Shown here in pieces: positions 1 to 24,900 of a stretch of DNA of 42,809 nucleotides (positions are counted from its first letter, which is position 1; the number at the start of each line of letters is the position of its first letter). The notes below the pieces were generated by a model. It was not told where the DNA came from. It made no database searches and saw only the letters and a program-made list of their open reading frames with translations. The translations under genes and the position numbers were made by a program. The stretch is from a virus, in the IMG/VR virus record IMGVR_UViG_3300030012_003299, positions 1 to 42,809 of that record; one strand, 5' to 3'.

Positions 1-279
1 GCTACAACTATTTACACAGCACCTGGTGGTACAACAGGAGTTATTCATGCAGTTTACATCAGTAATGTAGATGGAACGAATGATGCAACCATAGATTTGT
101 ATGTAACGGATACAAGCGCTGGTTCTGATTTCTACATTATGAAAACAGTAGACGTACCAGCAGATTCAACTCTTGTTATTGAGAAACCTATTAATTTAGA
201 AGCTGGTGATGTACTAAAAGCTGTTGCTTCGGCAGCTGGTGATTTACAAGCTTTTGCGAGTGTGTTGGAAATAACATAA
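1..279 (+). CDS. Small phage virion-associated protein, 5' end outside window
   Basis: The frame is open from the first base, so the gene starts upstream; 92 residues are visible before TAA at 277-279. An internal ATG at 97 is in frame, but the sequence before it (TTIYTAPGGTTGVIHAVYIS) continues the same fold and makes that start unlikely. The pattern is a small beta-rich domain: an opening 'TxIYTAP', a central 'NVDGTNDATIDLYVTD', then 'VPADSTLVIEKPINLEAGD' and the ending 'ASVLEIT'. Similar short proteins sit beside tail fibre and structural genes in many marine phages and are usually annotated only as structural or hypothetical. The next gene starts two bases after the stop, so the two are probably co-translated. 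Virion role is inferred from family likeness and position; the exact place in the particle is unknown. Confidence 0.6.
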   Translation, partial: ATTIYTAPGGTTGVIHAVYISNVDGTNDATIDLYVTDTSAGSDFYIMKTVDVPADSTLVIEKPINLEAGDVLKAVASAAGDLQAFASVLEIT

Positions 280-280
280 T

Positions 281-1582: not shown

Positions 1583-4500
1583 ATGGGTGTAAAAGTAACA
1601 GGACAATTTGAACCAGCCGGTGATTTTTCGATAGTAGACGGAAAAGATGTTTCGGGAAATATTACCGGTAGTAATATAAGTTCAAGCGGACAGATAGAAG
1701 CAGCTAGTATTGGAACAAACTTAGCCAGTATTATTAGTGGTTCTACACCATTTAATGCTGCTGCCGTAAGTGGTTCACTTGGTTCTAACGCAACATTAAT
1801 AAGAAGTTTAACAGCAGTTGGTATTAGTGGTTCTGTAACATCTGTAAGTGCAAGTATTGCAACCGATATAAATACATTTAGAGATGGGACTGCAACAAAA
1901 ATAAGTGGTTCAGCTACATCAACTGGTTCGTTTGGTCATATGAAAATCGGAAAAATAATGCCAGTTGGTGGATTAGACAATCCAAATACCCAAAATATCA
2001 GATTTGATTCTAATGGTTTGACTAGTCAGGCTGATGGTGAAAATGTCATAACAACTACAGACAATGGTGTAGTAGAGATTACTGATGTGGTTACTATCGC
2101 ACCTGAATTGACAGTCAAAAGTTCATATAATCATCTGACTCGTCAGAGTGGAGTAAATGTTGGTTTTATAGGTGATGGACAAATAACTGCGATTAGGTCA
2201 GGCAGTACAGCAGGACAAACCACAACTATCGCGATGAGAAATAGTGCTGAAATTCTTGGTCAATTCCAAACTGTTAACGGAATAGATGGAATAGACACGT
2301 ATGCTGGTCATGATTATCTAACCACAAGACTCAGAAGAAATGAGTTTCAAATTACTGGTTCGTTTAAAGTAAGTGGTTCAAATGTAACCATCGATGATAC
2401 GGGAACAGTAAGTGGTTCATCAACCTCAACTGGTTCGTTTGGTGCGGGTTTTATTGATAATAAGTTGGGTATTGGCACCACAAGTCCTGTAGAAGCTCTT
2501 CATGTTGCTGGTAAGGCTTATATAAGAAGAACAGGAACTGCTACTGCTCATGGTGATACAGATTTATTTGTAGCAGATTCAACTGCTGGTGGTTCTTATG
2601 GTCAAATACAAATATTAGGTGGAGCTAGTGGAGCAAGTTTACTTTACTTCTCCGATACGAATAGTTATTCCGTTGGTGGTATAAGGTACTTTCATAGTGA
2701 TAACAGAATGAACTTTAGAGCTAATGATACTGATATATTAGACATTACATCAACAAAAATAAGTGGTTCATCAACCTCAACTGGTTCGTTTGGTTCGGTT
2801 CATATACCAGATAAGATTGGAATAGGCACAACTGCTCCTAACTCTATGTTGCATGTAGATGGTGGAGATATTCGTCTATCTACTAATAAGAAAATATATT
2901 TTCACGACACCAACGATTACAACTATTTACATTTTCATGCAGGTAGATTAAAGTTAGGATATACTGCTGACGCCATTCAGATTGACATGAATGGAACTTC
3001 TGTTAAAACCATTGAGATGCAGGCTAGTTCTGATTTTAGATTATTAGGAAAAAGTAATAAAGATATTATACTAGAACCACAAGGAACTGGTATTGTTCAC
3101 GTAAAAGGTGCGATAAGCGGCTCTTCATTAGATGTAACTGGTAACATAAGAGCAGTAGGTGATGTGATAGCAGAAAGATACATCGTATCATCTTCGGTTA
3201 CACATCTCACACAATCATTCAGCAGTGGTTCAACCATATTTGGTGATAGCGCTGACGATACTCATCTATTTATTGGTAGTAAGATAAGTGGTTCATCAAA
3301 CTTAACTGGTTCGTTTGGTAAAATAGATTTTAGAGGTACTGGTGAAAAAGTATTTTTGAAATATAATCACGGTAGTAATGCTAATTTAAATGTTGGGTTA
3401 AAACATTTTGATAATGGTAGTGGTGGTCAATTTGCTATTGTTGGTGGTAGTACCCTTCAAAATAGAGTAGCAACTTTTCAATATAGTGGTGGTGCACCAA
3501 GATTAGGTATAGGTGTAACTAATCCTACCAATTCATCATTAGCAATATCAGCTCCAGCGGATAACGATATACAATTGGATGTATCTACTGGTGGTAACGG
3601 TTACTATGGATTAGGGATGGCTAATAGTGGTCAACATCGTTACCTACTTGGTAATACTTACTCAACTACCACGACACGATTTAGTATTACAGCTGGTGGT
3701 CTTACAACTGCTCATGATAGAATAACTATATACAATGCACTTGGAAATGGTAGAGAACATTATGTTGGTATAAACAAAGGAGCTACAAATCCAGCACATT
3801 CATTAGATGTATCTGGTAGTATAGTTTTTGCTAATGGAACACAAGCAGTTCAGATAAGCGGTTCAGCATCCTCAACTGGTTCGTTTGGTGATGGTCATTT
3901 TGCTAAAAAATTAGGTATAGGTACTGTATCAATACCACATGGTGGAGTCGGTGGCGGTAGATTATCCATAAATGGAGCAGATTCGAATGTAGCGAATGGC
4001 CCAGCTTTACAAATGACTACTGACTCTGATGACTATCCATTATTTTCTGTTTTACCTTATGCTCATGATAATGTAGCTGTTTATTTCGATGGATACAATC
4101 AGGGTGGTGGTAATAAATCATCGGACGCTGGTTCTACCTATCGTATACACAAAGTATCAGATGAATTAAGATTCGGAGTTGATTCTGGTGTGAGTGCTGG
4201 TTCAACAGCTACTTACGAAAACATTTTGGTTTTTGATACAAGCAAAAATATAGAGATAGGTGGTAACATAAGCGGTTCATCAACCTCAACTGGTTCGTTT
4301 GGTCAACTTGATGTTGCTCGTAACGCTGTAGTAGATAATAAGTTATTGGTAAATACCACCAACGATGCTCGTAGTCATGTTATTATAGCTAATGGTACAA
4401 TAGGAGGTCCTACTTTTAGTGGTACATATATAGATGCTAGAAGTGGTAATCTTAAATTATCAGCAAATAATGATGTACAATCTCAAAAGAGTATTATACC

Positions 4501-7500
4501 TGGTTACGATTACACGACTGTTAATGCTCGTGATTTAGGTTCAACTACTTACAGATGGAACGACATACATTTTGGTGGAGATATAAGTGGCTCATCAACT
4601 ACAACTGGTTCGTTTGGTTATGGTCACTTTGCTAGTAAGTTAGGCATTGGAACTACATCGCCCTCAAATGAGCTTCATGTTGTTGGTGATTTTTTATTAG
4701 ATAATTCTACTCCAGCTATGACAATGAAAAATGGTAGTACATTTTTTAATGAGTTTAAAGTTATTAGTGGTAATCACACAATATTAAAAACAAGTGGTGC
4801 ACAAGATTTAATATTTGGTACTGCTGATACAGAAAGATTTAGGTTAACTACCACTTCATTAAACTTTACCGATGGTATAAACATAAGTGGTTCAGCAACA
4901 TCAACTGGTTCGTTTGGTAATCTTAGGGTTGGTGATGTCGAAGGTGCTGAAAACAGATATGTATCTTTTGGTGGTGACGCTGGACTAAAGATAGGTTACG
5001 CTCAATCAGGTTTCTTAGCTAGTACAGGTGCTTCCTCAGATGGTGCTGATGCAGAAATAGTAATGACAGGAACTGGTGGTTCAGCGCCATTTAACCAACA
5101 TGGTAGTATCGTATATAAGACAAGAGCGGTAGATGCGATAGCAAGAAGTTCACATATATTCTACACAGGTAGAACATCTGCTGAAAGAGTAAGGATTGAC
5201 CACGATGGTAATTTGGGTATAGGCACAGCTGCTCCCTACTATAAAGGTCATATATCGTTTGATAATTCCACAACAGCGTTTAGTGGTGGTAGTAATGGAA
5301 ATTGGGGTGGTGACGGACTGAGAATCGAGAATACTAATAGTACAGTAGATACAAAAGCAACCTTACAATTAAGAGCATATGATTTTGACGCTTTTATATC
5401 CGCAGTTAAGAAGTCAGGTGCTAATACAGGTGAAATACAATTTACTGTAGATAATCATCCAAATTTAAATCAAATCCTTACATTAACAAAAACAAAAATA
5501 AGTGGTTCAGCATCCTCAACTGGTTCGTTTGCTAAAGGATTTATTGCTGATGGTCTTACCATTGGTGGAGACAGCACATTCATTGATAGTAAACTTAATG
5601 TTACCGATGGACATATAAGATTAGACAATCTTAAAAAAATACATTGGAATGGGACTAACAATGGTATAAGAGGAACTTCAAGTGGATACTTAGAGTTCAT
5701 GACTGGTAACTCTGTTAGGATGAAGGTTGCTAGTGATATTACATTTCCAAATGCTACAAAGATAAGTGGTTCATCAACATCAACCGGTTCGTTTGGTCAT
5801 CTTCATGTTGCTGCACAAGGAAGTACTTATCTAGCGACATTAGGAAATGATGGTCTTAGTGTAAAGGGTAGTAGTAATAGTACTGGTACAAACTTTAGAG
5901 TTAGAGATGGTAGTGGTAATACTAGATTTAATGTTCATGGTTATGGACAAACTGGTATAGGAACAGATTCTGCTCAAACAATGTTGCATATAAAATATGT
6001 TCATTCCTCTTTGAATAGTCTTGGTGAATACATTAGATTACAAGATAATTCAAACTATTCTGGTTCTATTGGATTAGGTTCAAATGGTACTTTAAAATTA
6101 ATGCCACAAGGTGGGGATGTTAATATAGCTAGTGAAGGTTCGAGTGCTGGTAATCTTACTGTTGATGGTAAGGTTCATATTGGTTCTTCAAATACACCCA
6201 CCAATGAGTTACAAGTAGTAGGTACTATAGAAGCTAGTGGAAACATAAGTGGTTCATCAACCTCAACTGGTTCGTTTGGTAAACTTAGTGTTAAGAATAC
6301 AGATTATGGTGGTATGATTGAATGGGGTAATGCTTATCCAGCACGAATATACAATCCAAGTGATAGTTTTGTAACTCTTTTAGACACAGCAGCTGATTTC
6401 AAGCTTCAAGCTAGACATGTTACTATTCAAAATAATGATGGAAACGATACATTGTATCTTCAGAACAATAGTGAACCAAAGATATACGCTAGTACAGGAA
6501 GTTTTCAAATATTAGCTGGTACAACATCTGTTGCTGATGGTGGTTCAAAAGATAGTGGTGGTGGATTTGGGTTCTTAACAGTAGGTTCGACTCACGCACA
6601 TATTTTTGCTACAGCATACAGACCTGGTGGTAATACTGGAAACTACGGAGTTCAATTTCATAATTCTTATGCAAATAAAGCTACAGGTTCTTTACTTATC
6701 AAAGATTCTGCTAAGATTGACCTTTTAACATTAGATGGTGCTATAATAAGTGGCTCATCAACCTCAACTGGTTCGTTTGGTAGGGTAGAAGCTACATCGA
6801 TATCAGCTAGTCTGTATCAAGGTCAAATCGGTTCTCGTTTTGTTCATTCACAGACTTCGGATTCTGCTACTTGGGTTATAAATCATAACATAGGACAGAA
6901 GTATCCTGTGGTTACTGTCTATGATGATAATGACCAGATGATACTACCTCAAAACGGTGTGGCTAATGACTCCGATACATTTACCCTGACATTCAATGAA
7001 GCCATACAGGGTAAGGCTGTAGTATCCGTTGGTGGTATCGGAACCAATGCTGGTGCTAACTACATCCATACACAAGGTGCCTCTTCTACGAATTGGAGAG
7101 TTACCCATAGTTTAAGTCAACAGTATCCAAATGTAACTGTTTACGATGATAATGACCAAGTAATCATACCCGAAAGTATCACAGCTGCTAGTTCAAATGA
7201 GATGGATATTACTTTCTCAAGCGGAAAGACAGGTTACGCAAACTTTTCAATCGGTAGCGGAATACCGAACATAAGTGCAGAAAATGCTGGTAAGGTTCTA
7301 AAGGTAAGGTCAGGCGGACAAGGTGTGGAATGGTCACCAACATCAAACGATGTTTCGGGTTCGATGTCCGTATCGGGTAGTATCACACCAACGATAGATA
7401 ACTTTCATAACTTAGGTTCAGCTACCCATAGATGGGCTAATCTACATACCGGTGATATTCAACTATCCAACGAAGGAACGGAAGGAAATGAAGTAGATGG

Positions 7501-7603
7501 AACAACAGGCTCTTGGACAATACAGGAAGGTGAGGATGACTTATATTTATTGAATAGGAAGAATGGTAAAAAGTACAAATTTAAATTAGAGGAGATTACC
7601 TAA
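1583..7603 (+). CDS. Giant modular tail fibre protein (2006 aa)
   Basis: The ATG at 1583 is preceded by an AGGAAG ribosome binding site that overlaps the previous stop. Twelve copies of an 11-residue linker close to SGSSTSTGSFG (residues 108, 277, 394, 569, 759, 897, 1002, 1102, 1307, 1395, 1556 and 1723) cut the protein into modules of about 90-205 residues. Several modules open with the fibre signature LGIGTTSP...LHV (for example 'KLGIGTTSPSNELHVVG'). Around residues 527-567 lies a motif 'SSSVTHLTQSFSSGS...FGDSADDTH' that stands at the N termini of the next giant proteins. Near the C terminus a 74-residue unit is duplicated (from residues 1753 and 1827; 'YPxVTVYDDNDQ'), followed by 'SWTIQEGEDDLYLLNRKNGK', an ending I know from cyanophage-type fibre proteins. 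There is no S74 domain. It is most likely a trimeric, beta-structured fibre; the receptor is unknown. Confidence 0.8.
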   Translation: MGVKVTGQFEPAGDFSIVDGKDVSGNITGSNISSSGQIEAASIGTNLASIISGSTPFNAAAVSGSLGSNATLIRSLTAVGISGSVTSVSASIATDINTFRDGTATKISGSATSTGSFGHMKIGKIMPVGGLDNPNTQNIRFDSNGLTSQADGENVITTTDNGVVEITDVVTIAPELTVKSSYNHLTRQSGVNVGFIGDGQITAIRSGSTAGQTTTIAMRNSAEILGQFQTVNGIDGIDTYAGHDYLTTRLRRNEFQITGSFKVSGSNVTIDDTGTVSGSSTSTGSFGAGFIDNKLGIGTTSPVEALHVAGKAYIRRTGTATAHGDTDLFVADSTAGGSYGQIQILGGASGASLLYFSDTNSYSVGGIRYFHSDNRMNFRANDTDILDITSTKISGSSTSTGSFGSVHIPDKIGIGTTAPNSMLHVDGGDIRLSTNKKIYFHDTNDYNYLHFHAGRLKLGYTADAIQIDMNGTSVKTIEMQASSDFRLLGKSNKDIILEPQGTGIVHVKGAISGSSLDVTGNIRAVGDVIAERYIVSSSVTHLTQSFSSGSTIFGDSADDTHLFIGSKISGSSNLTGSFGKIDFRGTGEKVFLKYNHGSNANLNVGLKHFDNGSGGQFAIVGGSTLQNRVATFQYSGGAPRLGIGVTNPTNSSLAISAPADNDIQLDVSTGGNGYYGLGMANSGQHRYLLGNTYSTTTTRFSITAGGLTTAHDRITIYNALGNGREHYVGINKGATNPAHSLDVSGSIVFANGTQAVQISGSASSTGSFGDGHFAKKLGIGTVSIPHGGVGGGRLSINGADSNVANGPALQMTTDSDDYPLFSVLPYAHDNVAVYFDGYNQGGGNKSSDAGSTYRIHKVSDELRFGVDSGVSAGSTATYENILVFDTSKNIEIGGNISGSSTSTGSFGQLDVARNAVVDNKLLVNTTNDARSHVIIANGTIGGPTFSGTYIDARSGNLKLSANNDVQSQKSIIPGYDYTTVNARDLGSTTYRWNDIHFGGDISGSSTTTGSFGYGHFASKLGIGTTSPSNELHVVGDFLLDNSTPAMTMKNGSTFFNEFKVISGNHTILKTSGAQDLIFGTADTERFRLTTTSLNFTDGINISGSATSTGSFGNLRVGDVEGAENRYVSFGGDAGLKIGYAQSGFLASTGASSDGADAEIVMTGTGGSAPFNQHGSIVYKTRAVDAIARSSHIFYTGRTSAERVRIDHDGNLGIGTAAPYYKGHISFDNSTTAFSGGSNGNWGGDGLRIENTNSTVDTKATLQLRAYDFDAFISAVKKSGANTGEIQFTVDNHPNLNQILTLTKTKISGSASSTGSFAKGFIADGLTIGGDSTFIDSKLNVTDGHIRLDNLKKIHWNGTNNGIRGTSSGYLEFMTGNSVRMKVASDITFPNATKISGSSTSTGSFGHLHVAAQGSTYLATLGNDGLSVKGSSNSTGTNFRVRDGSGNTRFNVHGYGQTGIGTDSAQTMLHIKYVHSSLNSLGEYIRLQDNSNYSGSIGLGSNGTLKLMPQGGDVNIASEGSSAGNLTVDGKVHIGSSNTPTNELQVVGTIEASGNISGSSTSTGSFGKLSVKNTDYGGMIEWGNAYPARIYNPSDSFVTLLDTAADFKLQARHVTIQNNDGNDTLYLQNNSEPKIYASTGSFQILAGTTSVADGGSKDSGGGFGFLTVGSTHAHIFATAYRPGGNTGNYGVQFHNSYANKATGSLLIKDSAKIDLLTLDGAIISGSSTSTGSFGRVEATSISASLYQGQIGSRFVHSQTSDSATWVINHNIGQKYPVVTVYDDNDQMILPQNGVANDSDTFTLTFNEAIQGKAVVSVGGIGTNAGANYIHTQGASSTNWRVTHSLSQQYPNVTVYDDNDQVIIPESITAASSNEMDITFSSGKTGYANFSIGSGIPNISAENAGKVLKVRSGGQGVEWSPTSNDVSGSMSVSGSITPTIDNFHNLGSATHRWANLHTGDIQLSNEGTEGNEVDGTTGSWTIQEGEDDLYLLNRKNGKKYKFKLEEIT
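1904..6781 (+). repeat. Twelve dispersed 33-bp linker repeats
   Basis: Copies lie at 1904, 2411, 2762, 3287, 3857, 4271, 4586, 4886, 5501, 5765, 6248 and 6749, each 33 bases long, all in the coding frame. The core reads agtggttcatcaacctcaac followed by tggttcgtttggt, with few substitutions and usually with 'ata' (Ile) before it. Distances between copies are 263-615 bases and are unequal, so this is neither a tandem satellite nor a CRISPR array. The DNA is more alike than protein conservation alone would require. Confidence 0.9.
6839..7255 (+). repeat. Tandem duplication of a 74-residue fibre domain
   Basis: Two adjacent units begin at 6839 (residue 1753) and 7061 (residue 1827). They share the plan H-[ST]-Q, a Trp (ATWVINHNI versus TNWRVTHSL), YP[VN]VTVYDDNDQ and a closing beta pair (VVSVGG versus NFSIGS). 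They have diverged, so the duplication is not recent. Confidence 0.75.
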
Positions 7604-10600
7604 ATGGCTATTTTTAGTGGTGACATATTTGCAGAAAATTATACTGTATCTTCGTCTGTAACCAACGTTCAGATATCGTCTGTCTCAGGTTCCACGAAGT
7701 CCGGTGATACTGGTGACGACATACATCAGTTTACTGGTTCTCTATCTATAAGTGGTAGTAGTATCGCTCTAGGTGGTGTGAACAACAATGTTATTATAGG
7801 TAAAAATACAAATCTTAACATAAATCTTGCTTCAACAGGACTAACAGCTATAGGATTAAATGCTGCTGGTGGAAATGAAGGTACAGAACTTGCTGGTGAT
7901 AACATAACTACTATTGGTTCACAAGCTGGTAGGAATATGCAACAGAATCCACATAGAACCACATTAGTTGGTTCTCTTGCAGGTGGATCTTTAAGTGTAG
8001 GTGTTGATAATACTTTTGTAGGTGCTCTTGCCGGATATGCTTTAACTGTTGCGGATAGAAATGTTTTCGTAGGTTCATACGCAGGATACCAAACAGTAGA
8101 TGTAGATAACTCAGTTATCATAGGATATCAAGCTGGTTACGCAAATATGACATCAGCCGCAGACGGAACAATCGCTATTGGATATCAAGCAGGTTATGCT
8201 ATTACTTCAGGTGCTGGAAATACAGTAATTGGACATCAAGCAGGTTATAACACTACTGGTAATTATAATGTGATGTTAGGATACAACGCCGGTAAATCAA
8301 TCACGAGTGGGGAATCGAATATCGCTATAGGTTATGAAGCTGGTAAAGGTATAGCTGGTCAAAGTAATAGTATCGCTATAGGTATTCAAGCTATGGAATC
8401 TATCGGTGGTGGTGGTAGTAACGTTGCCATTGGAACTGAAGCTATGAAAAGTAGTGGTACGGCAACTGGAAATGACGCTTCACAAAACGTCGCCATAGGT
8501 TATAGAGCAGGTAAGGATATAAGCGATGGTGATAATAATGTTCTACTAGGTTATAATACTGCTCAAAATATAACCACTGGTTATCGTGATGTTGCAGTAG
8601 GTGCACAAGCTTTAGAAACTGAAACCACAGGATATCATATCGTAGCAATAGGTTACGATAGTATGAGACAAGCAGTTGGTGCTAATCAAACTGTAGCTAT
8701 AGGTCAAGCTTCTCTTGAGTATTATTCTATAGGTAATAATACAAGTCAACACACAACAGCAATCGGTGATACCGCTGGTAAGTATACTACCGGTTCCTAC
8801 AACACATTCGTGGGTTCAGCTGCTGGTCAAGGTGGAACAACTTCCGCTCCGTATAGTTCTGGTGAGAATAATGTTGCTGTAGGATATCAAGCTTTTGATG
8901 CTTTCACAGAAGGAAATCTAAATGTGGCAGTTGGTTATCGAGCATTAAGTGCTGAAACTATCGGTATATCCACAGTAGCAATAGGAGATAATGCTGGAGT
9001 TGCTCAGAATTTTGGAAGTCACGGTTCAACTTACAATACAATGGTTGGGAGTGGTGCAGGATTTTGGAACGTAACAGGTACTGGAAATACATATTTAGGT
9101 GCTGGTGCCGGTACAGGAGCTAGTGGTCAGTCAAATAATAACAACACCGCAGTCGGAAATGCTGCGCTAACTTCTATCACCACAGGAATTCAGAACACGA
9201 TTATGGGTGCTGGTGCAGGACGAAATATTACTACAGGAGGAAACAACGTAATCATCGGAAGGGTTGCTGCTTACGCTTCAACCGATGTGGATAAAACCGT
9301 GATAATCGGCGAACAGGCAGCTTACACTGGTAATATGACCTCTGCCGCAGATGGTACGGTTTCCATAGGTGCTAATGCTGGTAAAAATGTAACATCAGCA
9401 GCTCAAAGTACGTTTGTTGGCTTTGGTGCTGGTGCGAATGTAACTACAGGAAATTATAATACTGCCATTGGATACAATGCAGGTTCACAAGCACAAGACG
9501 ATACTAATAATACATTCGTTGGTCGTGCAGCAGGATATCATGTTGAAAGTGATGAAAATGTATTTATTGGTGGTGATGCTGGTTATGGTGCACAAGATAG
9601 TACAACAGGTTCACAGAATACCTCTATCGGTTATCGTTCAATGTATAGTCACACTACTGCTAATAAGAATGTAGCTGTTGGTGACCAAGCACTTCAACTC
9701 CTCACAACAGGTAATCAGAACGTATCCATAGGAATGAGAGCATCTCAGTATAACACCGTTGGTAGTAATACGGTTCATATCGGTATTGAAGCTGGTAGAT
9801 ACGCAACAGGTTCTCTCAACACATTCGTGGGTGCAAATGCAGGAAAAGGTGGAACAACATCTGCTCCTTATAGTTCAGGTGGTTCAAATACTGCACTCGG
9901 ATATGGAGCTCTTACTGGTTTCACAACTGGATATAACAACACAGCTATCGGATATCAAGCAGGTAACAGTTTAACCACAGCTGAAGAGAGTGTTTTTGTC
10001 GGATACTTTGCTGGTTACAACGCTACAGGAAGTAGTGGTTATGGTGTAGCAATCGGTTCTCAAGCAGGTAGAGAGCAAAAATTAGGAAGTAGTGTTTACA
10101 TAGGTAGAATGGCTGGATATAAACATGATGGTTCTGCAGATTACGCTGGTGGGAATAATATTGGAATAGGATACCAGACAATGTATGGTATAAAAGGAGG
10201 TGCTAAAGGTAACATTGCTATTGGAAGAAGTTCTGGTTTGGCCTTAGATGGACATGATGTAAGTAATGAAGCAAGTTGGAATGTCTTTTTGGGATATTTT
10301 GCTGGTAATAATGTGACAAGTGGAAGTTACAATGTAGCAATAGGTTCTCACTATGGTGGTGGTGCAATGTATAATCTTAAAGATGGAAACCAAAATGTCG
10401 CTATCGGTTATAATACGTTTCAAGGTGATGGTAGTGATGGTCAGAAACCTGAACTTAACGTAATGATTGGTGGTGGTGCAGGTAGTGGTGGTTCTCTGAT
10501 GAAAACACCTAGCAACAATGTTGGTATTGGTTACACCGCTATGAACAAATTAGTAGACCAAGATTATTCTGTCGGAATTGGATATCAAGCTGGTAGATAC

Positions 10601-13600
10601 GCTACTGGTTCTTACAACACATTTGTAGGTGGAGATGCTGGAAAAGGCGGAACAACTTCTGCTCCGTATAGTTCAGGTGAAAGTAATACTGCTGTTGGAT
10701 ATAATGCTCTTGCTGGTTTCACGACTGGCGGAGACAATACCGCTATCGGTAGAAATGCAGGAACAGCAATTACATCTGGTGCTCGTAACGTTATCGTTGG
10801 AAAACAAGCAGGTGCTACACTAACCACAGGTACAAACAATGTTTTACTTGGTGTGAGTGCTATGTCATCAGCTGATGGGAATGAAAGAGAAAATATTGCT
10901 ATAGGTTACTATGCTGGTGGTGGAGTAAATAATGAATCTGCGATGCGAAATGTTTTTATAGGAGAATATGCTGGATACGGTGGAACTGGTGCTTTAAAAT
11001 ACTCTGTTGCTATAGGATATAGAGCGTTAGATGCTACTGATACAAATGGTGTAACTGGTGCGGTTGCAATAGGATACCAAGCTCTTACTGCTTTAACATC
11101 AGGCGGTGGTAATGTTGCAATAGGCTATCAAAATTCGTTAGCGATTACTACTGGAACACAAAATACTTCTGTTGGAAATTCTGCTAATTATAATTCAACT
11201 GGTCAAAATAATACTACTTTAGGATATCAAAGTAATTTTTACAATGTAACTGGTAATAATATTGTTGCAATTGGCTCTCAAGCAATGCAAGGTGGAAGTG
11301 GTCAATCTCATGCAAACAATACCTCAGTTGGTTATCAATCTATGTATAGTATTGGTACAGGTGGAAATAATGTCGCTATGGGTGCTAGTGCTATGTATGG
11401 TGGTGTAGGAGCTGCTAATCAGGTAGCAATCGGAACCGAAGCGTTATACTCTGCTACTAGTGGATTAGCTAATGTCGCAGTGGGATATAGAGCCGCGAAA
11501 GCACTTGGTAATGCAGAGAATGAAAATATTGCTATCGGATACCATACGATGTATTTGATGGATGAGGGTTCTGGTGCTAATGTAGATGAGAATATCGCTA
11601 TCGGTAGTTACGCTATGCAGGGTAAGGATTTAGGTTCAGCATCAACGGATATAACTAGAAACATTGCGATAGGAAAAGAGGCCTTGCAGCTATCAAACGC
11701 ACTAGCAGCTTCAGACAACATAGCGATGGGTTACAGAGCTCTAAAAGCAGTCACCTCAGGTGATGATAATATTGCTATTGGTTCAGAGGCAGGTGATGCG
11801 ATAACGACTGGAACTTACAATATTGGTATGGGTGAATATGCTCTATCATCTGTCAATACAGGCGGTTCAAATATCGGAATAGGTAGATTGGCTGGTACTA
11901 ATACCACCAGTGCAAATGGTAACTTTTATATCGGATACGCGGCTGGATATGCTAATCAAACTGGAACCTATAATACCATAGTAGGTAACTACTCCTTAGC
12001 ACAGACAACTGGAGTGGTGAACTTTTCCGCCGTAACAACCTTGGGTTGGGAAGCTGGATACTATGCTACTGGTTCCTACAACACATTCGTAGGGGCTGAA
12101 GCTGGAAAAGGAAACTCATCTGCTCCTCATAGTTCAGGTCAGAATAATACTGCTCTTGGATATAAAGCTCTTACTGCTTTCACAACTGGTGCAACTAATG
12201 TATCAATCGGTTCTTACTCACTTGAGTCAATAACAACTGGTTATGCCAATGTAGCAATCGGATACTATGCAGGTAGCGATTTAACCACAGGATTAAGAAA
12301 TGTTATTATTGGTGAAAATGCTGGTTTGTATGAAACTAGTAATTACAACACTTACATTGGTTATGAAGCCGGTAAAGGAAGTAGTAGCGGAAACGCATCT
12401 AACAGTTATAATGTTGCTGTTGGATACCAAGCTCTAACAGATGTCAGGTCAGCATCGCTTAACACTGCAGTTGGTCTTCAGGCTGGTACTAATATGGATG
12501 AGGGAGATGATAACGTATTGTTAGGAGCATATAGTGGATTAGCGATGACAGATGGCTCAAAGAATGTAATAATCGGTAGACAGGCAGGTAAAGATATTTC
12601 AACGGGTAATAGTAATATTGCTATTGGATACCAAGCTCTTTATACTGAAAACACAGGAACTTATGCGGTTGCTATCGGATATAGAAGTGGTTACAAAACT
12701 AGACTTAGTGCTCAAAATGAAAATGTCTTCATTGGTGCTAATGCTGGAAGAGAAAATACAGATGGTAACGATAATGTATATGTGGGATTTGGTGCTGGAT
12801 ATGGACAAGATGGTGAAAACCCAAATAGCAATGTTGCTATTGGTAATTATGCATTATATAATGCTAGAAATAATCAGAATGTTGCGATTGGTCATGAGGC
12901 GGGATTCTACGCTACAGGTTCCCAAAATACGTTCATAGGAAAAGATGCTGGAAAGGGTGGAATAACATCTGCTCCATTTAGTTCAGGTAATTTAAATACT
13001 GCCATTGGTTATCAAGCTCTTGCTGGTTTCACTACTGCTGAGTCTAATGTAGCCGTTGGTAGAGAAGCAGGTAATGACATCACCACAGGTACTGGTAACA
13101 CTTTAGTCGGTAATCAAGCAGGTGATAAAATAACAACTGCTGGGTATAATGCTGTTTTTGGAGCTGGTGCACTTGGAGCAATGGCAGCCAATACGGATAA
13201 TAACACCGCTATTGGTAGTTTTGCTATGTCTTCAGCTAACAATGCAGATGCTATAGATAATGTCGCTATTGGAGCATATGCGGGAACTGGTGGAACTGGT
13301 GCCCTAAAGAGAAGTATTGCTATAGGTAAAAATGCTCTTAACTCTACTGCTGGTAATGATAATACTGGTGCAGTTGCTATAGGTTATAATGCTCTTACTA
13401 CTTTGACCACAGGTGCTCAAAATTTAGCAATCGGATATGAGGCAGGTCGCACACTTTCAACTGGAGCTAGGAATACATTTTTAGGATATGAAGCTGGCGA
13501 AGATACTACTGGCGGTAGTGATAATACTTATCTTGGTAATAGAGCTGGTGGAGATCATACTGGTACTTACAATACTTTTGTAGGAAGTAATACAGGTAAA

Positions 13601-15220: not shown

Positions 15221-18200
15221 GTGAAAATTTATAGCTCGGAAATATCAGGATCTCTTAAAGTTCGTGGTGATATATTTGCAGAAAACTATGTAGTAAAATC
15301 TACAGTATCAACGATTACTCAATCGTTTAGTAGTGGTTCGACTATTTTTGGTGATAGTGCTGGTGATACTCATCAGTTTACTGGTTCCTTAAAGGTAAGT
15401 GGTTCAACACGATTAGAGGGTGAGGTTCTATCATTTGGTGCATCAGGAACTACCAATAATACTAATTTAATTATCGGTTATGAAGCTGGTGAAAATATAA
15501 CCACTGCGAATTACAATACTTTATATGGATATAGAGCGGGAAGAGATATAATAGATGAAAGTAGTAATGTAGCCATCGGTGCTTCAGCATTAACGAGTTT
15601 AAATAATTCTACTCATGGTTCTAATGTCGCAGTTGGTGCTAGTGCATTGACTTTAGCTACAAACGTATCCAGAACAGTTGCTATTGGATATTACGCTCTA
15701 GCATCTAATGTAGATGGGAACTATAATGTCGCAATTGGATATAGAGCATTACGCTCAACTACAGGAGGAGATGATAATGTTGCTATTGGTTACAATGCTT
15801 TAACTAATTATCTTCTTCATGATAATGTTGCTGTTGGAAACTATGCAGGTGAGATTGTAAACCAAACTGGTTTTACCAGTGTTGGTTATGAGTCTGGTAG
15901 GTATTCAAGCGGTAGTGGTAATACATTTATGGGATATCAGGCTGGTAAAGGTGGAACAACCTCTGCTCCGTATAGTTCAGGTACAGTTAATGTTGCTGTT
16001 GGATATCAAGCTCTTACTGGTTTCACGACTGCATTTCATAACGTTGCTATCGGTCATAGTGCGATGAAAGATAATTCCACAGGAAATTATAATACAGCTC
16101 TTGGTAATAATGCTTTAAGAGAGAATACATCAGGAGGTGCAAATACTGCATTGGGATATGCAGCTGGTTTTAGTCTAAATGGCGGAAACTACAATGTTCT
16201 CGTAGGGAACGGAGCTGGATATAGTCTTGCTGGAGTAAGTAATTGTATTCTAATAGGAGATGAAGCAGGTACTGCCATAAATAATACAGGCGCAAACGGA
16301 ACTGTTGCCATTGGGCACGAATCAGGAAAGGCGATTACTTCAGGTGCTCAAAATACTGCTATTGGTTACCGTGCTGGAAAAAGTCTAACAACCTCACAAA
16401 AAAACACTATCGTAGGATATCATGCAGGTGAAAATGTAAGTACTGATAATAACATACTCATAGGTAATAGTGCAGGTAGAAACATAACCACAGGCAATGG
16501 TAACAATGTTGTTATAGGTATGGCAGCTAGTGAAAATGCATCGGATGTAGACTATAGTGTACATATCGGTACTCAAGCTGGATATAATTCAAGTGGCTCA
16601 GCAAAAAATGTTGCGATTGGTTACTATGCTGGTCAGAATTTAAGCGTAGCTGAACACAGTGTTAGGGTGGGATACTATGCTGGTAGATATGCTACTGGTT
16701 CATTCAACACATTTGTGGGTTCTAACGCAGGATTAGGTGGAACAACATCTGCTCCGTATAGTTCAGGTACATATAATGTTGCTATGGGATATGAAGCTCT
16801 TAAAGCTTTCACGACCGCAGAAAGTGTAACAGCAATAGGACGTCAAGCTGGTAGAGCAGTCACGACTGGTAGATTTGGTGTTTTCTTAGGTGGCAGAGCA
16901 GGATATGCTATGACAACTGCAGATTTTGGTCCTATTGCTATAGGGTACAATGCACTTGGTTCGATGACAGATAAAAATGGTAATACCGCTGTAGGATATG
17001 AAACTGCTTATGCTAATGATACTGCGACTCAGGCTACTTTTATAGGTTGGACTGCAGCTAGATTATCAACTGGTGGAGTTAATAGTACCATCGTAGGTTC
17101 TCAAGCTGGTATGTACATCGTAGGTTCTGATATGGTTCATATTGGAACTCAAGCTGGATATTATGCTACTGGTTCTTACAACACATTCGTAGGTTCAGAA
17201 GCTGGAAAAGGCGGAACAACATCTGCTCCATACAGTTCAGGTCAGAATAATACTTCTCTTGGATATCAAGCTCTTAAAGCTTTCACGACAGGTGGTAACA
17301 ATACTGCAATCGGATATTTAGCTTTAAATGACAATACAAGTGCTAGTAACAATGTTGCAGTAGGAGCAGATGCTTCTCATAAAGGAACTACTGCAAATAA
17401 AAATGTAGCAGTAGGAAATCTTGCAAGTTATTTTAATGAAACTGGTGTCTATAATGTCTCAATAGGATATGAGACAATGAAAGGTACATCAGGTCAGTCA
17501 CACAACAATAATGTTGCTGTTGGCTATCAGTCTATGTTTCCAATAACTACTGGCGGTAACAATGTTGGAGTTGGTTATCAGTCTCTAAGAGCAATTACAT
17601 CGGGTGGGCAAAATACTGGTATAGGTACACAAGCTAATTATTCTGTTAATACTGGAGTTGTAAATACGGCAGTCGGTAATGGTGCATTATTTTATAACGA
17701 AACTGGTAATTACAATACTGCTATTGGTGGTTCTGCAATGGGCGGTGCTAGTGGAAACTCACATCAAAACAACACCGCAGTAGGATATAAAAGTTTATTT
17801 GGAGTTACTACTGGTAACGATAATTCCGCATTAGGGTATAATAGTTTATATTCAACAACAACTGCTAGATATCAAGTTGCAATAGGAGCTCAAGCATTAT
17901 ACTCAAATACTGCTGGAGATAATGGAGTAGCAATAGGTAGACAAGCTCTTTACAATCTAGACCAAACTACAAATACTCATGTTGTTGCAGTAGGTAATGC
18001 AGCTGGTTACAGTATGACATCAGGTAAATATAATTCTATATTAGGTTCTGCTGCTGGTTATTTTAATCAAACAGGTGATTATAATACTGTAATGGGTTAT
18101 GCAGCCGGATATGGTATAACTGGAAAATCAACCGATAATGTTACAGCTATAGGAGCTAGAGCATTACAGAATATAGTAGGAAATGAGTCTACTGCAGTTG

Positions 18201-21200
18201 GATTCCAAGCTGGATATTATGCAACTGGTTCTGAAAACACATTCGTAGGTGCTTACGCAGGTAGAGGATTAATATCATCTGCTCCTTTTAATCGAGCTAA
18301 GTGGAATGTTGCTGTGGGATACCAAGCTCTTTACAATTTAAAATCTGGTGGTTCTAATATAGCAGTTGGTTTTAAGGCTGCACAGAATGTAACTTCAAGT
18401 TTTAATGTTGCTGTAGGTTATGAAGCTGGAAGAGGTAAAACAACCGCTCCGTATAACTCAGGTGAATCTAATATTTCTATAGGCTCTTATACCAATCATA
18501 CTGTAAGCACAGGTAAAAGAAATGTCTCAATCGGTGGTAGAGCAGGTTATGCTATGGAAACCGGTACGGATAATACTCTTCTTGGAAACAACGCGGGATA
18601 CAATGTAAAACATGCAGTAGGTGCTACGATAATAGGTGGTTATGCTGGAAGATATGCATCTGGTTCTTACAACACATTCATAGGATATAATGCAGGAGAT
18701 GGTGCAACAACATCTGCTCCATTTAGTTCAGGTGAAGAGAATATTGCTATTGGTAGAAATACTATGAGAGTTTTCACAACAGGACACTCAAATGTTGTCG
18801 TAGGAAATCAAGCTGGTTACAACATCAACTCAGGACATGAGAATACCATAATGGGATATCAGGCTGCTTACAATCTTACAAGTGCTGATAACAACGTCAT
18901 AATCGGATACCAAACAGGTTACAATCTTACAACTTCGAGATATAATGTCTTAATCGGAGATAAGGCAGGATACAACTTACAACAAAGTAGTGCTAATAAC
19001 GAAAATGTTATGATTGGTTTTAATGCTGGGTATGCGGGTGATTACACCTGGCCTCAATCAACGGATAATGTTTATATAGGCTCCAATGCTGGTCGTGAGT
19101 TAGACGATGGTCACTCTAATGTTATAATAGGAAAAGAAGCTGGTAAAAGTAATGCCGCGGGTGGAAATACAACACAATACGATGTTTTTATTGGAATGGA
19201 AGCAGGATATAGTACAACGGACACAATCAGAAGTGTTGTGATAGGCTACAAAGCTGGTTACACAATGACGATTGGTAGTAATAGTGTTATCATAGGTGAC
19301 CAAGCTGGTTACACCCTTACGACAACCACCAATACAGTTTTAATTGGTAAAGATGCGGGTTATAATATCAACGCTACAGGCGCAGACGGAACAGTTGCTA
19401 TCGGATATCAAGCAGGATACAGTCTCACATCAGGTGCTGCGAATACAATTATAGGTTACCAATCAGCTAGGGCAGCAACCGATAGTGTTGGTGCTGCGGT
19501 TACTCTTGGATATGAAGCTATGAAAACCAACACAGATAGTACTGGTAATGTCGCTATCGGTTACTATGCTATGAGAGATGTTGCTGGTGGTTCAAGTAGG
19601 GATTACAATGTTGCTATAGGTCAAGATGCATTGAGAGCTGGAAACCCACATGTGTCTGTTGGTATCGGATATAGAGCTGGTTATAGAATTAAAGATGGTG
19701 GTACTGGTATAATTGCTATTGGACATGAAGCTGGATATCATGCAAGTGCTAGTAGAAACACCTTTATGGGATACCAAGCAGGAATGGGCGGAACAACAAC
19801 TGCTCCTTACAGTACAGGTACAAGTAATGTTGCTGTGGGATTTCAAGCTCTTAAATCTTTCACAACTGGTGACTACAATGTGGCTATCGGAGAAGCAGCA
19901 GGAGACGCTATAACGGAAGGTGGTCAAAATACTCTAGTTGGGTATTCAGCAGGTAGTGCTGTCACAACAGGTGGTGGTAACGTACTATTAGGTCGTTCTG
20001 CTGGAGCTAGTATAACCACAGCAGCTGGTTCTGTTATGATTGGTCAATACGCTGGTAATCAAACCAATGAAAGTCAAGTTGTTATCATTGGTCAATCCGC
20101 TGGTCAGTATAGTGGTCAAAGAAATATTATTATCGGTTACCTTGCTGGAAGATACGCAGGTGGTAACTATAATGTTGGTATTGGTTATTGGGCATTGAGT
20201 GCAAATACAAACTCACCTGGTGCAGGTGGAAGCTACAACACAGTCGTAGGATACTTTGCAGGTGCTGCTATGACAAGTGGTTCTAATAATACCGCGCTAG
20301 GATACTACGCTTTAGTAAGCACAACTACAGGTGGTCATAACACCGCAATCGGTACTCAAGCTGGAAATGATATCACAACAGGACAATACAACACCCTATT
20401 AGGTTCAGGTGCTGGACAGAATATAGTCTCATCAAATGACTATACTGCTATTGGGTATAGAGCTGGATATGATACTGGTAACGGTGGTTCAGATGGAGTT
20501 TATGTCGGTATGAATGCTGGTTACAAAGATAGTGGTAGTTACAATACATTTGTCGGTACAGATTGTGGTACTGCTACCTATACATCTGGTTACTCAACAG
20601 GTTCATCTAATACTGGTTTAGGATATCAAGCATTACAAGGTCTAAACGATGGTTATGATAACGTAGGAGTTGGTTCTGGTGCACATAAAAGAAATCAAAC
20701 CGGATATAGAAATACCGCTATTGGTACGATTGCTATGTTTAGTGATAATGGTGCAAGTGGTTATAATAATGTTGCCGTAGGGTATAAGTCGTTGTACTTT
20801 TTGACTACAGGTGATAGTAACGTAGGAGTGGGAAACACAGCTTTACAAAACATCACATCAGGAACAAATAATGTTGCTATCGGTAATGGTGCAGGTTTAA
20901 GTAACGCAGAACAAAGTGAGAATGTTTATATAGGATATTTGGCTGGATATCGTAACTCCAAAGGTACAGGTGTTGTTCATATCGGTGCTGATGCTGGTGC
21001 ATATACTACTGGCTCTCAAAACGTATTTGTAGGTCAAAGAGCTGGACAAGGTGGAACAGGGGACTCTACTCCATATGCATCAGGTGGAAGTAACGTTGGT
21101 ATTGGTTATGAGGCCCTTAAAGATTTCACAACTGCTGGTGGAAATACAGCAATTGGTAATGCTGCAGGAGCTGACCTTACTACAGGAGGACAAAACGTTG

Positions 21201-21952
21201 CGATAGGTGAGCAAGCTTTAAGGGTTGGAACAACTGCAGCGAATAACGTTGTTATTGGTGGTAGAGCTGCGGATGCGTTTAATGGTAATCAAAATGTTAT
21301 AATTGGTCAAAGTGCAATGACCACCGCAACGAGCACACTTAACAGTGTTATAGTTGGTTTTGCGGCTGGTGGTGCAATGACTAGTGGTGGCCCAAATACC
21401 TTAATCGGAACTTATACCAATGTACATAGTGGTACTGCTGACAATGTAATTTGTATTGGGTATGCTGTTACTGGAACTGCTGATGATAGAGTTCATATCG
21501 GTAATAACACAAGTCATATCTATAACGATTATAACTCTAATGCTACTTGGACACATTCTTCAGATAAGAGACAAAAGAAAAATATAGAAGATGATAAGTT
21601 AGGATTAGACTTCATAAATGATATCAGACCAGTTACATTCGAACATAAATCTCCATCAGAGTTTCCAAAAGAATGGAATGCTTACGATGCCGATGATAAA
21701 GAACCAATGGGTGGTGGTGGAAAAATTCATGGATTGATTGCACAAGAAGTAAAAGAAGCATTAGATAAACAAGGTATAGATACATTTGGGGGTTGGGATG
21801 AAACACCAGACGGAAGACAACATATATCTTTTGAAGCATTCGTTCTACCACTTATAAATTCTGTGAAAGAACTTTCTTCAGAAAATAAACAATTAAAAGA
21901 CGAACTTAATGAGTTGAAGATACTTATTAAAAAGAAATTAGGAGATGAATAG
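15221..21952 (+). CDS. Giant YadA-like repeat fibre with S74 chaperone (2243 aa)
   Basis: The start is GTG immediately after TAG of the previous gene, with AGGAG eight bases upstream. Residues 1-56 include 'GDIFAENYVVKSTVSTITQS' and 'FGDSAGDTHQFTGS', the N-terminal motif shared with its neighbours. From about residue 80 to 2098 the protein is YadA-head-like repeats with the same 'TGSYNTFVGSEAGKGGTTSA' super-unit as the preceding protein. The C-terminal 130 residues are a Peptidase_S74 domain: SDKRQK gives catalytic Ser 2114 and Lys 2119, and 'KSPSEFPKEWNAYDADDKEP' is almost identical to the preceding paralog. The protein is expected to trimerise and release its own chaperone. It is clearly a paralog of the 2538-residue protein; whether the two form one fibre or alternatives is not known. 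Confidence 0.85.
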   Translation: MKIYSSEISGSLKVRGDIFAENYVVKSTVSTITQSFSSGSTIFGDSAGDTHQFTGSLKVSGSTRLEGEVLSFGASGTTNNTNLIIGYEAGENITTANYNTLYGYRAGRDIIDESSNVAIGASALTSLNNSTHGSNVAVGASALTLATNVSRTVAIGYYALASNVDGNYNVAIGYRALRSTTGGDDNVAIGYNALTNYLLHDNVAVGNYAGEIVNQTGFTSVGYESGRYSSGSGNTFMGYQAGKGGTTSAPYSSGTVNVAVGYQALTGFTTAFHNVAIGHSAMKDNSTGNYNTALGNNALRENTSGGANTALGYAAGFSLNGGNYNVLVGNGAGYSLAGVSNCILIGDEAGTAINNTGANGTVAIGHESGKAITSGAQNTAIGYRAGKSLTTSQKNTIVGYHAGENVSTDNNILIGNSAGRNITTGNGNNVVIGMAASENASDVDYSVHIGTQAGYNSSGSAKNVAIGYYAGQNLSVAEHSVRVGYYAGRYATGSFNTFVGSNAGLGGTTSAPYSSGTYNVAMGYEALKAFTTAESVTAIGRQAGRAVTTGRFGVFLGGRAGYAMTTADFGPIAIGYNALGSMTDKNGNTAVGYETAYANDTATQATFIGWTAARLSTGGVNSTIVGSQAGMYIVGSDMVHIGTQAGYYATGSYNTFVGSEAGKGGTTSAPYSSGQNNTSLGYQALKAFTTGGNNTAIGYLALNDNTSASNNVAVGADASHKGTTANKNVAVGNLASYFNETGVYNVSIGYETMKGTSGQSHNNNVAVGYQSMFPITTGGNNVGVGYQSLRAITSGGQNTGIGTQANYSVNTGVVNTAVGNGALFYNETGNYNTAIGGSAMGGASGNSHQNNTAVGYKSLFGVTTGNDNSALGYNSLYSTTTARYQVAIGAQALYSNTAGDNGVAIGRQALYNLDQTTNTHVVAVGNAAGYSMTSGKYNSILGSAAGYFNQTGDYNTVMGYAAGYGITGKSTDNVTAIGARALQNIVGNESTAVGFQAGYYATGSENTFVGAYAGRGLISSAPFNRAKWNVAVGYQALYNLKSGGSNIAVGFKAAQNVTSSFNVAVGYEAGRGKTTAPYNSGESNISIGSYTNHTVSTGKRNVSIGGRAGYAMETGTDNTLLGNNAGYNVKHAVGATIIGGYAGRYASGSYNTFIGYNAGDGATTSAPFSSGEENIAIGRNTMRVFTTGHSNVVVGNQAGYNINSGHENTIMGYQAAYNLTSADNNVIIGYQTGYNLTTSRYNVLIGDKAGYNLQQSSANNENVMIGFNAGYAGDYTWPQSTDNVYIGSNAGRELDDGHSNVIIGKEAGKSNAAGGNTTQYDVFIGMEAGYSTTDTIRSVVIGYKAGYTMTIGSNSVIIGDQAGYTLTTTTNTVLIGKDAGYNINATGADGTVAIGYQAGYSLTSGAANTIIGYQSARAATDSVGAAVTLGYEAMKTNTDSTGNVAIGYYAMRDVAGGSSRDYNVAIGQDALRAGNPHVSVGIGYRAGYRIKDGGTGIIAIGHEAGYHASASRNTFMGYQAGMGGTTTAPYSTGTSNVAVGFQALKSFTTGDYNVAIGEAAGDAITEGGQNTLVGYSAGSAVTTGGGNVLLGRSAGASITTAAGSVMIGQYAGNQTNESQVVIIGQSAGQYSGQRNIIIGYLAGRYAGGNYNVGIGYWALSANTNSPGAGGSYNTVVGYFAGAAMTSGSNNTALGYYALVSTTTGGHNTAIGTQAGNDITTGQYNTLLGSGAGQNIVSSNDYTAIGYRAGYDTGNGGSDGVYVGMNAGYKDSGSYNTFVGTDCGTATYTSGYSTGSSNTGLGYQALQGLNDGYDNVGVGSGAHKRNQTGYRNTAIGTIAMFSDNGASGYNNVAVGYKSLYFLTTGDSNVGVGNTALQNITSGTNNVAIGNGAGLSNAEQSENVYIGYLAGYRNSKGTGVVHIGADAGAYTTGSQNVFVGQRAGQGGTGDSTPYASGGSNVGIGYEALKDFTTAGGNTAIGNAAGADLTTGGQNVAIGEQALRVGTTAANNVVIGGRAADAFNGNQNVIIGQSAMTTATSTLNSVIVGFAAGGAMTSGGPNTLIGTYTNVHSGTADNVICIGYAVTGTADDRVHIGNNTSHIYNDYNSNATWTHSSDKRQKKNIEDDKLGLDFINDIRPVTFEHKSPSEFPKEWNAYDADDKEPMGGGGKIHGLIAQEVKEALDKQGIDTFGGWDETPDGRQHISFEAFVLPLINSVKELSSENKQLKDELNELKILIKKKLGDE
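15457..21520 (+). repeat. YadA-head-like repeat tract, second
   Basis: About 2020 residues of [IV]GYxAG-type repeats. The 'GSxNTFVG' super-unit recurs with its GS codon at 15911, 16697, 17171, 18227, 18662, about 19748 (diverged, SASRNTFMG), 20534 and 21011. Stretches of DNA around these units are close to those in the neighbouring paralogous tracts. Confidence 0.85.
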
Positions 21953-24900
21953 GTGAAAATTGATAGCCCAACCTTTCTGACGGAAACCACTTTTATAAGT
22001 GCTTCGGTGCAATTCTCAAGCGGTTCCCAAAAGTTCGGTGATACAACAGATGATTTACATCAGTTTACTGGTTCCATGTCCATTACTGGAGATATGGGTA
22101 ATAAAATAAGTGGTTCATCAACCTCAACTGGTTCGTTTGGTGCTGGTTTCTTTGACGATAGTGTTGGTATAGGAGTCGCACCTGGTAACTCAAGTTATAT
22201 GTTAAATATAGAAGCAGCCCAAACTTATGCTGCAAAATTTAAGTCAAGAAAATCAACCTCATCTTCTTCTCAAAGAACGATGATTCAAGTTGGAACTGCA
22301 CAAGCCAAAGGAGCTGGTATCTTCTTTCAAGGTCCAGGTACAAATCTTTCAATAGGTGTAAAGGAAGATAATAAGTTTCATATTGCACCTGGTAGAAATG
22401 ATATTGGTGATTCTAGTGCTTATTCTGTTACTGTAGATACAATTGGTAACTTTGAGGTTACTGCTGGTAACATAAGTGGTTCATCAACCTCAACTGGTTC
22501 GTTTGGTTCTTTACAAATCGCTGACGCACATCAAGGTAATTTAAAAATAAATGGTGGATTAATAACTACTGATGGTATGAATATTGATGGAACAATTTAC
22601 CTAAATACCAACGGTGGTACTATTGCATCTTATGCAGCAGGCTACAGTATGACTTTATCATCTGGTTTCAAACATATTTTTAAATCTTGGAAAGCTGGTG
22701 TAGGTTTTTCAACAACGATGGAGATTGATGACATTGATAATGGTGGTCATGTAACATTTTTAGTTCCTAATCAAAAAATAAGTGGTTCATCAACCTCAAC
22801 AGGTTCGTTTGGTGTTACACAAACTGAGGGTATAAGAGGATTGGGTGGAACTTATAGTGATATATTATTAATACCAGATGCTTTAAAATTCGGAAACGAT
22901 ACGGATACTGAGTTTAGAAGAAGGACTTCGAATGAGGTTGAGTTTAGAATAGCTGGTTCAGATAAGGTTAGAATAAACACATCTGGTTTACAGGTTGAAA
23001 GTGGTCATTTAGAAGTTGAAAGTGGTAATGTAATAGCAAGTGGAAACATAAGTGGTTCAGCAACCTCAACTGGTTCGTTTGGTAATGTTGAAATATTAGG
23101 TTCTACTCCTCTATCAAAAGTTGGTGCTAATACATTAAATATTTCTAAAGATGCTGTAAGTTCTTTTGCTGACCTACAAATAGCAGTTCAAGGTAATGAC
23201 CTTATGGGAATGGTAATGCACGAGGATGGTAGCACTCGTGCTGGTGTATATTATCAAAATACTCCTCTCTCCATGTTAGTTCTCAGAACAAATTCTAGCA
23301 CCTTTAGAGTAGTTAATGCAACTAATACTTTTAGTGGTTCATCATCCTCAACTGGTTCGTTTGGTAGAGTAGTATCTGCTGATGGCGTGTTTGAGGGAGC
23401 CGGTAGTAAAAAACTTATAATAGACTCTAACTCAAATATAAGTTTAGGTAATAATGACTTAGGAAGTAGTAACACCCTATTTGGATATCAAGCTGGTACT
23501 TTTTTAATAGCAGGTTCTAATCAGAATACTGCTATCGGTACGCAGGCGCTTGTATATGCTGGAAGTGCTGATACTGATGGTAATACCGCAGTTGGTTTTA
23601 AGGCTATGTTTGGTAGTTCTGCTGGAAGTGCTTCAGATAAAAATCCAAGATGGAACACTGCTATTGGTTATCAATCACTTGCAGGAATTACTACAGGAGA
23701 CAATAACGTTGCTTTAGGTTATCTGGCAGGTTCTGCACTCACAAGCGGTGGATATCATGTTTTAATCGGTAGTGGTGCTGGTAGTTCTATGACCACCAAC
23801 ACTTTAGGTAGTGTTGCCATCGGTTACAATGCTTTGGCTAGTCAGACAGTAAAAGGTAGAACTGTTGCGATAGGTGTACAATCCTTAACTGCTCTAGACC
23901 GAACAAATCAAGACGATTATAATGTTGCAATAGGATATAGGTCTGGTTACGTTACCACTACAGGATTATTCAATACCTTTATAGGTGGACTTGCAGGTCA
24001 ACAACACCAAGGTCAAGATTCGGTAATGATTGGATATATTGCTGGTCAATACGCAACTGGTTCATACAACACATTTGTAGGTTCTCAAGCTGGAAGAGGA
24101 CCTGGTAGTGCTCCTTATGCTAGTGGTCTATACAATACTGCACTTGGATATCAAGCTTTATACTCTTTCACAACCTCTAATTCAAATGTTGCTATCGGTT
24201 ACCAAACTTTATATGAATTAGAAACTCAAACGAGTTCAACTAGCGGTCACTATGTCGCTATCGGTAGTAAAGCAGGTTTTACCTACAACCAATCTCAATA
24301 TGGTAGAAACGTTGCAATAGGTGGTTCTGCAGGTTATTATGCTTCTGCATCTAAAAATAGTGTAGTAATAGGATATCAAGCAGGAGAGTATGGTACGTCT
24401 AATAGTAATGTGTATTTGGGATATCATGCAGGTAGAGGATACAAAGCAAGTGGAACTTGGCCGTATAGTACAGGATTTTCTAATGTTGCTATCGGTCAAT
24501 CTGCTATGTATTCAATTCAAGGTGGAGGTGATAATGTTGCTGTTGGAACAAATGCATTGTATCGTAATACAGAAGGTGGTAATAACGTTGCTGTTGGGCA
24601 ACTAGCTGGATACAATGTTACAGGTTCTCAAAACACATTCATAGGTTCTGAGGCAGGTTACGGACTTAACTCAGCTCCTTACGCTTCAGGTGGTAGTAAT
24701 ATTGGGATAGGTTATAGAAGTCTTTACTATTTAACAACCTCTGGCGAGAATGTTGCAATTGGAGTTAACGCAGGTAATGCTATTACCACAGGTGGTTACC
24801 ATACCCTTATCGGTACACAAGCAGGCCTTAGACTTACCACTTCCAACTACACCACTCTTATCGGATACAGAGCGGGTAGATATAATACAGGTGCATATAA

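Follow-up and report, generated by a model that had tools for sequence, protein, structure and literature searches.

A repeated coding linker as a probable in-frame recombination joint between tail fiber modules of uncultured T4-like phages

Introduction

Why would two giant phage genes repeat one short DNA sequence, almost letter for letter, at the borders of modules that are themselves very different? The question is raised by IMG/VR record IMGVR_UViG_3300030012_003299 from an uncultured marine-type T4-like virus of bacteria, whose whole analyzed stretch of 42,809 nucleotides is called the window here. It contains a T4-like tail region with a tail sheath gene at 28944-31424 (identified by Pfam), upstream of which lie four giant genes (F1 to F4) and one short gene (281-1573). 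Copies of a linker of the type SGSSTSTGSFG occur 17 times between 1904 and 23365 (12 in F1, five in F4) and once in the short gene. An earlier note, made from the sequence alone, had listed the same in-frame copies, with which our pattern search agrees, and had proposed the linker as a recombination joint. We conclude, with a probability of about 87%, that the linker is an intragenic, in-frame joint for homologous recombination of tail fiber modules in a widespread group of uncultured T4-like phages.

Exchange of linker-bounded modules between phages

The closest relative, contig L001 (164.8 kb), keeps the gene order of the window, and its sheath, tube and two adjoining genes are 80-92% identical to those of the window at the DNA level (80% for the sheath, 92% for the tube). 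Only 8-39% of each fiber gene is shared (8% of gene 281-1573, 27-36% of F2 and F3). The shared blocks in the linker regions are rearranged and have both ends at linkers, except for block 3139-3319, which has only its right end there. In L001, the counterpart of window 22773-23089 (module N3 of F4) is followed by that of window 4879-5531 (module M8 of F1), and the counterpart of window 22103-22507 (N1, F4) by that of window 6746-7764 (M12, F1). Linker-bounded blocks have been exchanged between two genes, while the neighboring backbone stayed syntenic. Both order and content of the modules differ between these relatives with block ends at linkers, in line with the cassette-like exchange that the earlier note had envisaged. 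Gene 281-1573 starts with a 23-residue N-terminal anchor (MANLKYIGKNILNHDLEVRKGNV) ahead of its linker, and the L001 homology over window 1-381 stops one base short of the end of this linker (350-382). The same anchor and linker head the giant gene itself in L001, and elsewhere among the phages they are joined to unrelated bodies, the proteins being 271-2091 residues long.

Gain, loss and replacement of modules were followed in a set of 99 loci from 87 contigs, with 513 linkers giving 297 distinct modules. Contigs L123 and L104 are 99.9% identical save for exactly one in-frame linker plus module (327 bp), and the crossover lies within 25 bp common to the linker end and the module start; this pair is in line with the suggestion that crossovers add or remove modules without breaking the frame. 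L006 contains an extra module (11848-12204) with a homologue elsewhere in the same gene of L005. L186 and L127 have one module in common (97.6-100% identity; 97.6% over the 375 bp that include the linkers), and its neighbors on both sides are unrelated. Across the linker regions of the 87 contigs, 112 of 202 ends of homology blocks are located in a linker in each of the two partners, where 22.4 would be expected (null mean, with a standard deviation of 4.4 and a maximum of 37 in 2000).

Closely related modules show where the switch takes place. Among module pairs with at least 96% identity, a changed linker is seen at 2 of 63 junctions with an unchanged neighbor and at 11 of 12 with a replaced neighbor (Fisher P = 1.9e-10; one of these 12 changed junctions, L003/L152, comes from G014, a contig with possible misassembly). 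The 33 bp of module adjoining the linker differ at 1 of 2079 sites where the neighbor is unchanged and at 5 of 396 where it is replaced. Since the linker is altered but the adjoining module hardly is, the switch between homology and non-homology falls inside the linker. Together with the concentration of block ends, this upholds the proposal of a recombination joint.

Conservation and distribution of the linker

The near-invariance that had been ascribed to a 33-bp linker holds, and its edges are sharp, while the length needs correction: the conserved unit is about 36 bp, because conservation begins at the ATA (Ile) codon before AGT and collapses after the last GGT. Between these limits the information is near 2 bits at most bases, with an immediate drop on both sides. 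Every copy is in frame with its gene, the within-gene spacing being 264-615 bp, and the linker peptide ends in SFG in 16 of the 17 copies (SFA in copy 5501-5533). The protein segments between the linkers are as different from each other as the earlier note had described, no pair within the window reaching 60% identity over 80% of the length.

Linker codon conservation exceeds codon bias, as had likewise been claimed. Ser9 is TCG in 17 of 17 window copies, compared to 5.7% of the Ser codons in the same genes, Ser3 is TCA in 17 of 17, and the preceding Ile is ATA in 15 of 15; when codons are drawn according to their usage in these genes, most linker positions give P ≤ 0.0005. The codon identity of three control repeats (GIGT, NTFVG, and NVAIGY) is mostly near the expectation from bias and rises mildly above it at a few codons; no control repeat is as invariant as the linker. 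The preference extends to other phages. In an unbiased set of 72 contigs, Ser9 is TCG in 42% of cases versus 8% expected, and is above its own background in 55 contigs, while TCA is used at Ser3 and Ser6 in 81-84% of cases versus 52% expected (72-87 contigs). Neither a constant module order among relatives nor a linker explained by codon bias was found.

A wobble-neutral linker pattern matched at least 119 IMG/VR stretches, 18 stretches contain the exact 33-mer, and a reversed control pattern gave zero matches. Using the C-terminal part of F1 as query, we retrieved 58 loci; nine of them encode the linker, and their preferred codons are largely the same. The number of copies in a single phage reaches about 37, and all of them lie on the same strand. 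The linker DNA was present in no isolate phage, the related isolates examined also lack the peptide, and a literature search for the peptide returned no match. Contigs L197 and L204, binned to Flavobacteriales and marine TMED198 genomes, hold several linkers, which gives a weak hint of the hosts.

Proposed mechanism

In the proposed mechanism, copies of one linker lie between modules of 80-200 residues, and common descent together with repeated reassortment would keep the linker DNA similar. In co-infecting phages, or with two copies within one genome, the phage recombination system could pair any two linkers, and a crossover between them would insert, delete, duplicate or replace whole modules with the frame intact. 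Linker-bounded swaps, module gain and loss, and sequence switches inside the linker are what the comparisons above display. The enzyme presumably acts by RecA/UvsX-type strand exchange or by annealing, using about 30 bp of homology. The outcome would be diversity of the virion part that touches the host.

The best fit is homologous recombination. Along the linker, first mismatches occur at scattered positions and are not gathered at one point, as would be expected of homologous recombination rather than of a fixed site. Minimal pairing segments of 31-34 bp have been published for RecA and of 23-27 bp for Red-beta (PMC3945230), lengths that the joint of 33-36 bp reaches. Paired linkers usually have 1-5 mismatches, so that perfect identity is often shorter than 33-36 bp.

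Competing explanations

The codon conservation raises the possibility that the linker DNA or messenger RNA is itself under purifying selection (for instance as a signal for protein binding, pausing or folding), with module turnover being incidental, which we consider unlikely even though position-specific codons are kept across 72-87 contigs (Ser9 TCG, Ser3/Ser6 TCA). One part of the earlier interpretation finds no support, in that synonymous sites of the linkers do not change more slowly than those of modules of matched age. At four-fold degenerate sites, linkers mostly keep pace with the flanking modules or outpace them: the divergence is 0.020 versus 0.002 in near-identical pairs and 0.342 versus 0.282 for the most distant pairs, with the linker slightly slower (0.212 versus 0.247) in the class of 75-90% identity. 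The linker divergence levels off near 0.34-0.38, below saturation (0.577). No DNA hairpin beyond shuffled controls was found in the linker, and distant phages encode it with other codons. Purifying selection on the linker DNA is thus not supported, nor does it seem needed to explain the conservation; given the four-fold divergence figures, one ancestral linker reassorted among phages fits better than a slow-evolving element. Linker similarity (codon similarity of 0.717 within and 0.663 between contigs) looks like common descent with reassortment from a shared pool. A bolder extension, which we put forward tentatively, is that the linker may be a community-wide DNA standard: the exact 33-mer would open a common module pool, and carrying the joint would itself be favored (selection for exchangeability).

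Conservation of the peptide extends further than that of its codons, and domain mosaicism is common in tail fibers (PMC10684548), as one would expect if the linker were a structural joint of a trimeric fiber at the protein level only, with modules diverging or being replaced by illegitimate recombination and in-frame joints being selected. This is improbable, since homologous modules stand in different genes and orders and identity switches inside the linker DNA, which calls for pairing at the DNA level. Moreover, the codons are inherited along with the linker, and the break points are concentrated in linkers at the DNA level. It is highly improbable that short-read assemblers fused unrelated phages through the common 33-mer: junction linkers carry 1-5 differences in 11 of the 12 replaced-neighbor cases, shared modules are often 80-97% identical instead of identical, the genes stay open for about 2000 codons, and many contigs of different sample origin repeat this pattern, to be set against one case of frame breaks at repeated modules (G014/G003). 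The lowest probability of all goes to a site-specific recombinase that targets the linker in an integron-like or invertase-like cassette system. A short conserved site and cassette-like modules would suit such an enzyme, but switch points are spread over the linker without a single core, all copies have the same orientation with no inverted copies seen, and part of the L123/L104 junction is outside the linker. In addition, neither a tyrosine integrase nor a serine resolvase was found in seven related contigs of up to 164.8 kb, virus records that come with no estimate of their completeness and may be fragments.

Some points weigh against the linker as a joint for homologous recombination. About 45% of the block ends lie outside linkers, due to ordinary divergence or other joints, and all evidence of shuffling is comparative and comes from metagenome assemblies only. 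A RecA-family gene in the L001 contig (G001) and in G008 would suit such a joint, but none was found in the five others of the seven contigs, which are possibly fragments. Finally, L210 (G014:C1:14000-19821) and L211 (G003:C1:69000-76500), otherwise 99.95-100% identical, show an apparent module duplication at linkers that may be a misassembly because the reading frame is shifted; it was not counted as an independent case.

Comparison with known diversification systems

Recombination between conserved motifs swaps adhesins at the distal tail fiber locus of T-even phages, according to the citing accounts (Tetart 1998, cited in PMC6027323 and PMC3797505). The T-even phages are, like the window phage, T4-like contractile phages in which variable adhesin segments lie between short, conserved motifs of the coding sequence that act as crossover points, and conserved motifs at the edges of exchanged segments are found here as well. 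A few glycine-rich boxes surround the hypervariable loops of one T-even adhesin (PMC6027323), whereas window-type phages repeat one standard linker up to about 17-37 times per phage, use it to separate whole modules, and move these modules inside one gene, from gene to gene and from phage to phage. No gp37/gp38 family was found in the Pfam search (gene 281-1573, F1, and F4; the sheath and 33513-35012 were also covered) or in the PHROG search (gene 281-1573, F1, F2, and F3; F4 was not run), and gene homology to the T-even gp37/gp38 is not supported by these searches. By analogy, the linker joint can be regarded as a standardized form of this T-even mode of recombination, with the conserved motifs more densely placed.

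The antireceptors of Streptococcus thermophilus phages have domains set apart by collagen-like repeats (Duplessis and Moineau 2001, cited in PMC5601072). There too, a repetitive linker separates tail protein domains, including the host range region; in the cited account it differs by being collagen-like, by belonging to phages of a Gram-positive host, and by having no single fixed sequence at every border. Ongoing shuffling of tail fiber fragments between phages has been surveyed for receptor-binding proteins (PMC10684548). No DNA joint common to the fragments is described there, and the text contains neither “linker” nor “breakpoint” as a word, whereas the joint is seen here at the nucleotide level. 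Diversity-generating retroelements also diversify proteins of phages that contact the host, but the linker system exchanges whole modules instead of mutating adenines, and the seven contigs, which may be fragments, gave no reverse transcriptase. Unlike integron or invertase cassettes, it has no fixed crossover core, and no site-specific recombinase was found in these contigs.

Mosaicism of tail fibers is well known, but its joints are rarely visible. Here, one repeated coding sequence marks every border, and single crossovers can therefore be read and the flow of modules between phages traced. The question whether viruses evolve features that ease the shuffling of their own genes thereby becomes directly testable, and the linker system offers a natural catalogue of fiber modules with one common joint.

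Genes and features of the window

The giant genes, whose products may contact the receptor, are most likely tail fiber genes, because the C-terminal ~96 residues of F1 match the fiber protein gp28 of cyanophage P-SCSP1u (8i4m, E = 8.8e-21), F4 has a C-terminal Peptidase_S74 (Pfam, E = 1.5e-12), F2 and F3 match PHROG tail-spike and virion structural families, and all are located before the sheath, in the same place as the annotated tail fiber genes of Flavobacterium phage immuto. The tube gene probably starts at 31592, judging by position and synteny with immuto. The coordinates are given in Table 1.

Table 1. Genes, linker copies and named modules of the window
Feature	Position	Strand	Remark
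Short fiber-like gene, 430 residues	281-1573	+	N-terminal anchor, one linker, variable body
F1, giant modular fiber gene, 2006 residues	1583-7603	+	12 linkers
F2, giant gene	7604-15220		no linkers
F3, giant gene	15221-21952		no linkers
F4, giant fiber gene, 2171 residues	21953-28468	+	five linker modules, NVAIGY-type repeats, then C-terminal Peptidase_S74 chaperone
Linker 0, SGSSSSTGSFG	350-382	+	L001 homology stops at 381
Linker 1, SGSATSTGSFG	1904-1936	+	
Linker 2, SGSSTSTGSFG	2411-2443	+	
Linker 3	2762-2794	+	
Linker 4, SGSSNLTGSFG	3287-3319	+	L001 homology block 3139-3319 finishes on last base
Linker 5, SGSASSTGSFG	3857-3889	+	
Linker 6	4271-4303	+	block common with L135 begins here; left flank unrelated
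Linker 7, SGSSTTTGSFG	4586-4618	+	
Linker 8, SGSATSTGSFG	4886-4918	+	
Module M8	4919-5500	+	in L001 directly follows homologue of N3
Linker 9, SGSASSTGSFA	5501-5533	+	
Linker 10	5765-5797	+	
Linker 11	6248-6280	+	
Linker 12	6749-6781	+	conserved C-terminal block common with L001 begins here
Module M12, conserved C-terminal part of F1	6782-7603	+	fiber end domains
Linker 13	22109-22141	+	
Module N1	22142-22474	+	L001 homologue, 90% identical, directly precedes M12; L135 homologue, 76-77% identical
Linker 14	22475-22507	+	
Linker 15	22781-22813	+	
Module N3	22814-23050	+	homologue in L001 directly precedes M8
Linker 16, SGSATSTGSFG	23051-23083	+	
Linker 17, SGSSSSTGSFG	23333-23365	+	

The fiber domain at window 6749-7603 matches PHROG 24148, labeled “HNH endonuclease,” a label that probably stems from a fusion or a mis-annotation. 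AlphaFold models were unusable, with a mean predicted local distance difference test (pLDDT) score of 46 for a module with linkers and 43 for the C-terminal block of F1. F2 and F3 contain NVAIGYxAG-type repeats (YadA-head-like), a C-terminal DVRQKK...S74-like end, and long near-identical sub-repeats, for instance YATGSYNTFVGxxAGKGGTTSAPYSSG. A second shared segment, of the SVTHLTQSFSSGSTIFGDSADDTHLFIGS type, is located at window 3139-3319 (inside F1), 15266-15391 (start of F3) and 21953-22108 (start of F4). It also occurs in dozens of relatives and may be another joint or a fiber-trimer segment.

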